In this document: positions 102 to 6,100 of the stretch, piece by piece
Position numbering within the stretch: the stretch's first letter is position 1
Layout of the letters: each line of letters opens with the position of its first letter
Assembly: GCA_903813345.2 (NCBI GenBank)
Contig: CAIIXF020000005.1
Location: forward strand, 28,027,375-28,091,374
DNA: 64,000 nt
Source of the DNA: Owenia fusiformis
Lineage: Eukaryota > Annelida > Polychaeta > Sabellida > Oweniidae
Direction: 5' to 3'
The notes under the pieces: model-generated
What the model saw: only the letters and a program-made list of their open reading frames with translations
What the model was told of the DNA's origin: nothing
Databases searched by the model: none
Translations under genes and position numbers: made by a program

Positions 102-3100
102 CTGTAATGAGAAATACAGTAAAGTTGAGTAACTGTACATAAAAGGTTTTGGGTCATTTCTTTGAGTTTCCCCATTCACACTCACATTGTAAGAATCATT
201 TCATCTGGTTCAAGAAGAATGGTTTTACTGTATATATAAAATTGGCTTGAAAATTATCACTTGTAGTCTATTTGTTTATGAGCGAATAAAAACTCATTTC
301 AGACACTCATAGTCAGGGTATACGAAATGGAAATTCCAATAAACAAGAGACTTTGAAACCTGGATATTAACAAAATATTTCATTTTACTCTACAGACTTA
401 AATGGGCAATAAAGACTTGAATGTGTAAAACGTAGGAAGCAATCTTAACGAATTATTTAACGAATGGAACACATCTCCATTCCAAAACAGAGCAATCGAT
501 CATGGCACCTTTTTTCTATTTTTACAATAACATTTTGAATCTTACACCTATTCTATTGCTTTATATTTTCTTACTGCTCTGGAGATATAGTATAACAATG
601 GCTTAAAAGGCATACCTGTATATGATGCCTTTAGCATGGAGGTACTGCAAGCCACATACTATCTCTGCAGCATAAAATCTCGATCTCTCAGAATCAAAGC
701 GTCCTGAGGCTTGGATATGGAACATAAGATCTCCACCATTCAAATACTCCATAACAAAGAATAGATGGCTCTGGAATAGAATGTCATAATCCAATAAAAT
801 GTAGTTATTTGCGGAGAATACAATTTATTCATGACTACCTGAAGTTTGAGGGATGCCAATAAGCGACCATGGCGATTATACTGACATGTTTCCCAGAGAG
901 CAATCTACTCCAAACTCATATATTCATTTGATTGGCATGGAAAATCTTCAATATTTTGTAAATGTACTTGGAGATGACTGTAGCTTTTGGGTGGGATTTC
1001 ATTCTGTGATAAAATTATACTTTGAAAAATGACTAAATCTATTTACATATGACTAAATATATTGACATATGACTAAATCTATTGACATATGACTAAATCT
1101 ATTGACATATGACTTAATCTATTGACATATGACTAAATCTATTGACATATGACTTAATTTTTTGACATATGACTTAATATATTGACATATTGAACCAAAT
1201 TTATCATTCAGAAATCATTTTCAAAGCTTGTTATTTCAAAAATTATACCATGTCATCATATATCCCATCATCTTCAAAAGGAGGAGCATGTACATGTACA
1301 CTTACTTTCGACTGGAACGTGCTGTGCAAATGAGTAAGGTAAGGGTGGGAGCATCCTAACTCTAAGACGCGTTTCTCAATCATTGTGCATTCTACATCAT
1401 CATCTTCTAAAACCACCTCCTTTTTGAGAGCCTTTACGGCATAGTATGTCCCTGTTCCCTTCAACTCTGCCAACATCACCTAGAATATGGAGTGAAAATG
1501 CGCATACATTGGGAACACCTACATACAAGTAAACTATGAAGTGTACTCACCATCCCCTCCCACCCATGAAGTCATTCAAACTATGCTTGGATCTTTGAAT
1601 AAAGTGTAAACTATGTCAGGATATCCCTGGTGTTATTTGTCACGAAGGAATGGCTTCATAGGTGGGAATAAGAGGAATTCAGAATATTGCAGGGGCACAA
1701 GCACTCATATTAGAAATCAGTAAATATTTCTCAACCTCACTTAAAGAGCTGAATATATGTAACTAGGTAATGTTAAAACCTAGAAAATAATGTACTATAA
1801 TAAAGGAATGATCACTTTATCAAAAATAATTGAAATGTGGTTTTTGTTTAAAACAATAAGCAAACCAAGGCAACATACATGAAATGCATATTTGATAGCT
1901 ATATGTGCAAGAGTATTCGTTTTTCATTGAGACTCAAATACATCATACATATACAAATAAAGATCACACATAACTTTGCGTTTTTTGCTTAAGTATGAAA
2001 CTGAAAAACAGATTATAGACTACACTGAAGCTTATAGAAAATTTAAAGAAGAAATAAAGGATACAAAATCTTATATAACTCCAATCTTCCATGCAAGTCC
2101 AGCATTAAGCAGAATATTCCCTTTACCTTTCCAAAACTTCCTTTACCCAACACTTTGAGAAAGTTGAACTCTTTAGCCTCAAACTTTTTAACTCTACGAG
2201 CTGGGGTGGGAGCCTGAGAAGTGGGGGTTTGGGGAGGTTCTATATCAGTCCAGAGTGGCTCATAGGCATCATTGTCTGAATCTTCCTCTTCCTGCACTGT
2301 GGCGCCATCTTTAGGCTTAAGAAATAATAGAAATGTGCAAAGGTCTTAATTATCTCATTAATTATCTCATTTTCGTGCATAATTAATTATCATTAATCAT
2401 TATCATGCAGCATTCAATTTTCCTTGATTCACCTGTAATCAAAAGGGCTATCATCTATTTCCTAGGAAATATCCAATAATGCACCTGTTGGAGCAGAAAA
2501 TGTTCCAATAGTGTACCTTTGGTTGGAAGTAAATGATGTTCCCACAATGCACCTATGGGAGCAGATAATGTTCCCAAAATGCTGGAGGAAATTTTGGTTT
2601 GGAACTCAGCATTGATGGGATTATGAAATACTTCAAAGGACGGTGAGAAGAGATTTATGAAAGGTGTACCTAAAAAATAGAAAAGGGTTTGATGAGGTTG
2701 TGAAATTATCCTAAACAATTTTCACAAAATGGTTGTTGGGTTTGTGTGGGAGGGATTGACTTAAATAAAGGAACACCTTAACTAAAACAAACAAGTGGAA
2801 ATCTTACTGCCTTAGGCAAGCTCATGTTTATGCTCTCAGTATCATATAATTTTGCATAAAGCATAATTTATAATCAAATCAAATTGATTGATTGACTTAT
2901 ACTTAAAAGTACATTTATTTTTTGTTTATTATAACTGAGCAAACCTTTGCATACATGTAAAGCTTGCTTAAAGCTCATTCCAAATCAAAAACCCAAAACA
3001 GTACCTTTCCAAAACTACCCTTGCCAAGAATTTTTAAAAAATTGAACTGTTTTTCGTTAAATTTTTGTAAACGTTTGGATGGTCTAGGAGCAGGTGTTGG

Positions 3101-6100
3101 TCTCATAGAGGGCCTTGGGGGAGGGACAAGTCGTTTTTGTGATGTTTGAGCATCATCACCAAATGCTACTGTGCTGTATTGGCCGTCATCGTCTTCCTCC
3201 TCAAATACATCACTGCTACTAGCGCCACTGGAGGAAAGTCGACTCTGCGTGGAGGTTGTGCTCTGTAGGATTCAAGTATAGAATATACAATCTCCAATTT
3301 TTTACAAAAGGGCTCTGTCTCCAGAACACTCCCAATTTTTTAATTGGAAAAAGTCAGATACACCATCCATAACAGACTTTGATTTTTTGAAGTTTCCTCC
3401 CTGAAAACAATAAAGCTTAGAACATATATATTCACACCTTATATCTAGTAAGTTTCGTGACAGCTGTAAATTATAAGGGCGATTGAGGAACATTTTCAGC
3501 CTCTTTAATTTATAGAAAAGGTTAATAGCAAAGTCTATTGATTCTGCAAGTACGGGTTAATCCAAATTTCTTTCAATCTTAGCATCACTGAGCCACCTTA
3601 AGAGTTCAATTTTATAATTATTCAAATGATAATGAATGAGATTAAGTGCATCAAGGCCTATATTCAGTCAGCATGTCAATGATGCTGTATCAGACCCAAA
3701 ATAAGTCAAAATAGACCCCTAAAAGAAACAAATTCCCATTTAAATTATTCAGTACATAATCAAATTCATGTATTTATTTTTAGAAATCAAAGGAAGTATC
3801 TGACTGGAGAATAGTTAACAAGTATATCAAGGTCAAGGTCACAAAATGATGTGTTAACTCCTCTCTGGAAGAAGTGCAAGATTGACCAACAATGATAGTT
3901 TTTGTAAGGGCAGTATCTTAACACTGCAGATATATCTACTGATCTTAAAGTAATTCTCATCTACAAAAACATGTCAAAGACACACTTAATGGCATTACTC
4001 AGAGCGCAAAGAAAGCAGTGAATAACAATTGTCAACTGATAATCCAAGATTCCAAAATTGATGCTTAGATTAGCATTCAAGTCATGTCTTTTTCACATAA
4101 CTCCATTAAGACAATCGAGTGTTTAATAGTTTAGCATTTGTATTAAATCTAGAGTTAACAAAGTGCTTAATTACAATTTCATTCTTTACTTATTATTGCG
4201 CTGTTATTCCACCATTTTTTGCAAGTTAAAATTAAACCACTGTGACATAGTCACAGTAACAATGAGAAATGAGACAGATCTGACAGCTCTTAGTATTATT
4301 AAATAAAAATCATATCTCTCAATTAGATTTACAATAAATGCAATTGAGTTCTTTTCACAATGTTATTTGTTGTTTCTATACCAATCACCAGATGACAACT
4401 TTATATCATAAAACAATTCATGCATGGTAAAATAATAATCTAATTCAATCAATTTCACATTCATCTATAACCCAACGAATCTATCAATCAATTGCTTGTC
4501 TTATTTGATAACACAAACCAAGCCTCATAAACCATAATAAAATCCAAACCTAAACTCTGGAAACTGAAAATGAGGGAAATATTAAAAGACTAGTCTAGGG
4601 TATATGTGAAACCTGTAAATTTGCATGCCGTCACTTAAACTGGAACTACAAAACTGAAACAGAAGTTAGTTATTATTATGCTATATCATCTATCACACAA
4701 GCCATGCTTTGATAGTACAGGGTGTCTAAAAAACAGGACCAAAGTAATGTTGATTCACTCTGTCAATCTTGCATATTCTGCCTTGAAATTTCATGATTAT
4801 TCAGTTCATTCAATGCTATTTTGTTGTGAAAGTTTGAAGATAATTTGCCTATTGAGTCGTAAAATACAGTACCTTACAAAACATGTTCCAAGGGGCACCT
4901 TTCCTCCCTATACACAATTCAGTGCCCACTTGGAGCATGTTTTGTAAGGTACTGTAGTTTTTGACTCAATAGGCAGATTATTATCAAATTGTCACAACAA
5001 AATTTACGTTAAATGAACTAAATAATTCTGAAATTTCAAGGCAGAAAATACTCAGGATTGACAGAGTTAATCAACTTTTAAAAGGTCCTGTTTTTGGACA
5101 CCCTGTATTACTCCACACAATGAATTGTCTGATATTCCTGTGTACAATTTATAGTGTTTTGGCAACATGCTATTATTCACTTTCTTCTATGCTAATTCCA
5201 CTCTTCTAAACAGTACATGTAGTATGCATTTTAAAATTCGATCAAGACCATTTCATCCATCGCCCAAACTGCCCTTGTGAAGCCCCCCCCCCCATGCAGG
5301 CCTCCATTTCAAACTCATGCATTAAAATAAAGCAATTATCATCAATTGTATCTTGGACAAAATTTTAAATTACATCAATTTTAACATTTTGGTTACAAGC
5401 ACAACTATGAATTTGTATGAAGAATTCAGTGTTTGTGGTGAACACTAAATCGATTCAAAATTTTGTCCAAGCTATATTTCATCTTTTTGACAAATAATAT
5501 TTTCTACACACTTCAACTGATATGAAAGCTCTTTGGAAATAAATTCTCTGGAATTTTACAAGAAAGACAATATGGAGTTTAATTGTTAAGCCTGGAGAAA
5601 ATGATTTATGTAAAAACATCAGGGGTATAAATTAAATTTTATTTTATTTTTTTGGCTATTTTAGGCAAAAGCATACCAGAAAAACCATAGAAAATTACTT
5701 GAGTTTAAAAGATTATTCAAACTTTCAGAAAATATGTCAATGCTGCAAGAGAAGTATTCTAAATCCAGTGGTAGGGCACTCTTTTGGAAAACGAGGGGTT
5801 CTGGTATTGAACCCCACTGGGGTGTACTGACTTTTTCATATTAGCCTTTAGAACAGGATTTCATTCTGTGTTTTCATTAACCCATAAAACATCATTTATA
5901 ATCACTAAGTTTATTATGAAACAATTTTTATATCATATAATAATAATTACCAAGACATTGTTACACAATAACGTATCAATCAATTAAGGGATGTTATAAA
6001 ACATTGTAGACTTATAATATAATATTAGACGAATTTTATAAAACAACTGCACCGCAATGAATCACTTGCTGGAGAATACAATGCAAAATGATTCTAATTT

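Follow-up and report, generated by a model that had tools for sequence, protein, structure and literature searches.

In FYN, the tandem exons 7A and 7B span the linker between the SH2 domain and the kinase together with the ATP-binding N-lobe, and exchanging them changes autoinhibition (PMC9741552, PMC3189609, PMC5026472). The JNK1/2 genes (Mapk8/9) carry mutually exclusive exons in the kinase domain whose use is tuned by the trans-acting factor NOVA (PMC5026472). Among protein kinase C (PKC) genes, PRKCB, Pkc53E and pkc-2 belong to the families with convergent tandem duplicated exon substitutions (PMC9741552), and two further systems involve splicing of the PKC hinge. In the mouse PKC-delta variants II, V and VII (human VIII), hinge splicing alters cleavage by caspase-3, and a 78-bp in-frame insertion in the DILD site abolishes it (PMC8248728). 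In the atypical PKC of Aplysia (Apl III), hinge splice inserts encode a calpain site for the formation of protein kinase M (PKM) (PMC6539039). Here we describe a novel-type PKC gene of the annelid Owenia fusiformis, located in a window of 64,000 nucleotides (contig CAIIXF020000005.1, positions 28,027,375 to 28,091,374; all positions below are counted from the first nucleotide of the window). Two homologous exons of this gene, here called A and B, each encode a hinge followed by the beta1 strand and glycine loop of the kinase domain. We consider it likely, with a probability of about 0.72, that the two arose by tandem duplication and that both copies have been kept through alternative splicing of A or B, yielding distinct isoforms of a novel PKC.

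Two homologous exons for the hinge and glycine loop

Most of the novel-type (delta/theta-like) PKC gene lies on the minus strand of the window’s first 20 kb, as do all of its exons named here. Exon A (3005–3262, 258 nt, 86 codons) and exon B (2127–2315, 189 nt, 63 codons) are flanked upstream by exon 10 (6414–6467), a shared 18-codon hinge exon of phase 0/0, and downstream by the shared exon 11 (1306–1479), which is 69% identical to human PRKCD by tblastn. Both A and B have phases 0/0, their AG acceptors stand at 3263 (tcctacag) and 2316 (atttcttaag), and both close with FNFLK(I/V)LGKGSFGK, the GT donor following directly on the AAG codon of the last Lys (AAG/GTACTG in A, AAG/GTAAAG in B). The splice sites are GT-AG pairs of the ordinary U2 type, and the intron separating the two exons measures 689 nt. 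A first-pass annotation of this DNA had proposed two exons with the same phases and the same donor codon, either of which could join exon 11, and its coordinates, lengths and splice sites were confirmed. The donor of exon A scores lowest of the gene’s 13 donors, and the donors of both A and B lack the G at +5. Weak donors and donors without this G are common among alternative exons. We also considered whether an ATG at 2308, within exon B, could be the hidden start of a kinase-only first exon, and rejected this since that codon is not in frame with the kinase.

The kinase-coding ends of the two exons are clearly homologous. Over the last 24 codons, 17 of 24 residues are identical and 24 of 72 nucleotides differ, and another 3 of 7 residues match ahead of the beta1 strand, as against 12–14 of 24 and 0 of 7 when either exon is compared with the epsilon-type and conventional paralogues of this gene. 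The Smith-Waterman score of the A–B pair is 130, compared with 59–81 for A or B against the paralogues and human PRKCD. Because A and B are closer to each other than to these paralogues, the duplication falls within the lineage of this gene. In the conventional (C9) and epsilon-type (C8) paralogues the donor stands at the matching codon, and 9.9 kb read at each locus together with a genome search showed one exon of this kind in each. This indicates an ancestral position for the donor intron and a duplication specific to the lineage of this gene. Whole-genome tblastn of the 498-Mb assembly found no third copy of the exon in the introns or elsewhere in the genome. Duplication of the exon during assembly was ruled out, as the copies are just ~67% identical in nucleotide sequence over their best 72 nt. 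A contig scan for relatives outside this genome returned only a distant bacterial kinase (28% identity), and viral contigs gave nothing.

Divergence between the copies is concentrated at silent sites. The proportion of synonymous differences (pS) is 0.76 over the last 24 codons, which is saturated, with a proportion of nonsynonymous differences (pN) of 0.24, and narrowing the comparison to the last 17 codons gives 0.74 and 0.15. When 24 random substitutions were simulated under neutrality, the observed identity was retained in 0 of 2000 runs (mean 9.2). Protein identity has thus been kept while synonymous sites became saturated, indicating that both copies have long been held by purifying selection. 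Taken together, these comparisons identify A and B as ancient intragenic tandem duplicates of an exon for the hinge, beta1 strand and glycine loop.

The hinge-coding parts are unlike in length and sequence, and what they share is a plan in which a proline-rich run comes after an acidic cluster. Beyond what composition explains, their similarity is no more than suggestive (local score 41, reached by 38 of 5000 shuffles), such that the single plan that the first-pass annotation had read across both exons stands for the kinase part and is weaker for the acidic and proline-rich hinge. In the epsilon-type paralogue (L019, 8052–8078 and upstream), the single hinge and glycine-loop exon also opens with an acidic run (ISDEEEEGEGG...), and given this run the acidic hinge may predate the duplication. 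Exon 10 could be skipped in frame, so that exon 10, A and B together make the whole hinge zone modular.

Alternative use and the question of exclusion

If exon A were always followed by exon B, its glycine loop would lie outside the kinase and be free to decay, and its conservation therefore suggests that the junction from A to exon 11 is used. More generally, the conserved kinase part of either exon should matter only when joined directly to exon 11, which for A implies transcripts that skip B and for B implies transcripts with B only or with A and B. Alternative use of the two exons, as the first-pass annotation had proposed for this PKC, is well supported by this reasoning from tandem duplication and from purifying selection on both copies, the strongest case for it that DNA can make. 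On this reading, an ancestral exon was duplicated in tandem inside the gene long ago, and both copies would have been kept because splicing chooses between them: exon 10 would connect to one of the two, which in turn would connect to exon 11. The resulting isoforms would share near-identical catalytic N-lobes and differ in hinges of 86 and 63 residues whose acidic, Ser/Thr-rich and Pro-rich stretches are unlike. If FYN 7A/7B and the PKC hinge variants are a guide, the swap would most likely alter autoinhibition by the regulatory half of the protein, hinge phosphorylation or protein contacts, and protease cleavage more than chemistry. The annotation had also drawn a parallel to caspase cleavage of vertebrate PKC delta, for which this sequence gives no direct support: exons A and B contain no DxxD caspase-3 site, and exon 10 has no Asp.

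Whether the choice between A and B is mutually exclusive is a separate matter. With phase 0 at both the end of exon 10 and the start of exon 11, transcripts with A, with B, with both or with neither would all be in frame. The first-pass annotation had reasoned that a kinase has one glycine loop and that an mRNA should therefore carry one of the exons, an argument that fails in that joining A to B keeps the beta1 strand and glycine loop of B contiguous with exon 11. Double inclusion would add the 86 residues of exon A to the disordered hinge, and the kinase made from such an mRNA could still work, its hinge segment now 149 residues long and holding A’s copy of the glycine loop. Two of the annotation’s other points were borne out. 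Steric exclusion is unlikely given the 689-nt intron and AG-free zones of just 27 nt, which leave no distant branch point, and both exon lengths are multiples of three, so that frameshift and frame-based decay could not remove double inclusion. No U12 donors were found at the introns of A and B, and of the known exclusion mechanisms (steric hindrance, U2/U12 incompatibility, frameshift with nonsense-mediated decay, and competing RNA pairing) none shows in this sequence. If the exons do exclude one another, trans-acting factors would have to bring this about; regulated splicing factors, Rbfox possibly among them, are a more probable cause than steric hindrance or the reading frame. The annotation as a whole holds in outline for alternative hinge and glycine-loop exons and overstates both the argument for exclusivity and the caspase link.

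One candidate for such a factor is of the Rbfox type. The word TGCATG (UGCAUG in the RNA) occurs on the minus strand 94 nt upstream of exon B (2404–2409) and 32 nt downstream of it (2090–2095), flanking B but not A, and among the ten exons examined just one more has it within 150 nt. The chance expectation for either flank of exon B, taken by itself, is ~0.01–0.03. Across the window this strand shows no enrichment of the word (19 occurrences against 21.7 expected). An Rbfox-like RNA recognition motif is encoded on C9 (80% identity in a stretch of 35 residues, 78% in one of 23).

Several points weigh against the reading of A and B as alternatively used duplicates. It draws on the genomic DNA of one genome, the selection test covers 24 codons in two sequences, and the homology of the hinges upstream of the kinase is weak and at best suggestive. 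No sequence feature enforces exclusion, whether in the reading frames, the ordinary splice sites or intron pairing. Rbfox possibly controls exon B, and this hypothesis was formed post hoc after several motifs had been viewed.

The rival explanations differ in probability. Transcripts with A only, B only and both exons might all be made at useful levels, so that use is alternative and not mutually exclusive. This fits the fact that every form is in frame and that our tests found no mechanism of exclusion, and we regard it as unlikely while taking it seriously. Somewhat more doubtful is a constitutive exon B with A as an optional cassette, giving transcripts with B only and with A and B, the latter with a longer hinge holding a fossil glycine loop. 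The weak donor of A would suit an optional exon, every junction is in frame with the A–B junction unblocked by any sequence feature, and the 78-bp hinge insertion of mouse PKC-delta and the hinge inserts of the Aplysia atypical PKC offer precedents; however, the beta1 strand and glycine loop of A have stayed nearly identical to those of B despite saturated silent sites, which a surplus hinge loop would not need.

Less probable again is that competing RNA pairing between introns, as the first-pass annotation had suggested, decides which exon is used, by way of a docking site and selectors. Such pairing is one of the leading mechanisms known for exon clusters to which steric, U2/U12 and frame routes do not apply (PMC6071210), but the best helices among the three introns were no better than those of shuffled sequences (reached by 16/40, 32/40 and 15/40 shuffles; a single genome makes this a weak test), and for a cluster of two exons trans-acting factors suffice, as in the JNK exons with NOVA. 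We would similarly give long odds to a three-way switch among A only, B only and A with B, in which Rbfox would set the use of B through the flanking UGCAUG words and the choice of hinge would determine the release of PKM, a constitutively active catalytic fragment; if true, tandem exons would serve here for a function that depends on hinge inserts in molluscs and mammals. That exon A or B is an unused relic kept by chance is highly improbable, since the weak donor of A and the reading of both exons from DNA alone would allow it but both retain open frames and intact splice sites, with an identity that neutral simulation never reproduced.

The surrounding gene and repeats in the window

The other exons of the gene are those of a novel PKC. 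Its parts read as a C2-like domain, two C1 domains and an AGC kinase with a C-terminal hydrophobic motif, and Pfam recovers C1_1 twice and Pkinase. The C2-like domain lies in an open frame at 20092–20376, matched by the human PRKCD N-terminus in tblastn (E 8e-16; exon edges are approximate). The two C1 domains span 15.7–6.66 kb, with the first part of the first in the C1A exon (15561–15722, Pfam C1_1), followed by the C1B exon (7631–7759, Pfam C1_1) and exon 9 (6660–6787), which holds the end of the second. Downstream of exon 11 are exon 12 (616–770), ending in GIIY, and the start of exon 13 (1–105). The remaining kinase exons continue past the window into L009, where the C-terminal tail is intact, with FRHFSFTSPMALVD immediately before the stop codon; the chain closes with FSFTSPMALVD, which includes the FSFTSP of the tail. 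Human PRKCD aligns exon by exon by tblastn, with 46–88% identity across the kinase and C-tail exons, and the nearest solved chain to this kinase is PKC theta (E 4e-76). These features identify the gene as a novel PKC of the delta/theta type.

Several introns of the gene contain repeats. An imperfect inverted repeat of ~390 bp (4713–5105) lies in the intron that separates exons 10 and A; it has acagggtgtccaaaaa-type ends and resembles a miniature inverted-repeat transposable element or foldback element. In the intron after exon 11, a 20-bp unit (atatgtcaatagatttagtc) is repeated in tandem (1020–1190). Further upstream, a tandem array of ~180-bp units (ggttggtataaccaattactatc...) at 9850–10750 makes a repetitive open frame of 183 amino acids, and an inverted pair of cagggtgtcaaaaaacaacggcaccccc (8905–8980 and 9470–9545), ~0.6 kb apart, probably marks the ends of another foldback element. 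Elsewhere in the window, a four-base GACG/CGTC array of more than 1.2 kb (56105–57560) is open in several frames (DGRT.../PSVR...). This CGTC repeat recurs, far shorter, in L009 (~1990–2100), after the motif cgaacgaagttcgg.

Comparison with known systems

The open-access literature yielded no earlier report of duplicated hinge and glycine-loop exons in a novel PKC, and among mutually exclusive exons described in PKC genes there we found no hinge and glycine-loop case. The arrangement is already known as a kind, and its occurrence in a novel PKC has no earlier report that we found in the open literature.

Alternatively spliced exons that were duplicated in tandem are present in the vertebrate, fly and nematode PKC genes PRKCB, Pkc53E and pkc-2, a parallel to the exon pair described here, but these are conventional PKCs whereas this one is of the novel type. 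The swap in PRKCB (beta-I/beta-II) concerns the C-terminal end and not the hinge and glycine loop. The mouse PKC-delta variants resemble the proposed use of the Owenia pair in altering the hinge by splicing, but do so by an insertion in the DILD site rather than by exchange of a duplicated exon. Apl III likewise shows hinge splicing in a lophotrochozoan PKC, but through optional inserts in an atypical PKC with a single glycine loop. The JNK1/2 exons also lie within a kinase domain but alter the substrate-binding part.

The closest known system to this exon pair is human FYN 7A/7B (FynB/FynT). In both genes, tandem homologous exons encode the regulatory linker to the kinase together with the ATP-binding start of the kinase domain. 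FYN is a Src-family tyrosine kinase and its linker follows the SH2 domain, whereas the gene described here is an AGC-family novel PKC whose alternative exon use is predicted from DNA, and in which the hinge connects the C1 domains to the kinase. If our reading is correct, the Owenia gene and FYN would be two independent cases, from different kinase families, of the duplication of exactly the exon connecting a regulatory linker to the ATP-binding N-lobe, suggesting that the boundary between linker and glycine loop may be a favoured site for tuning autoinhibition by splicing while catalysis is kept.
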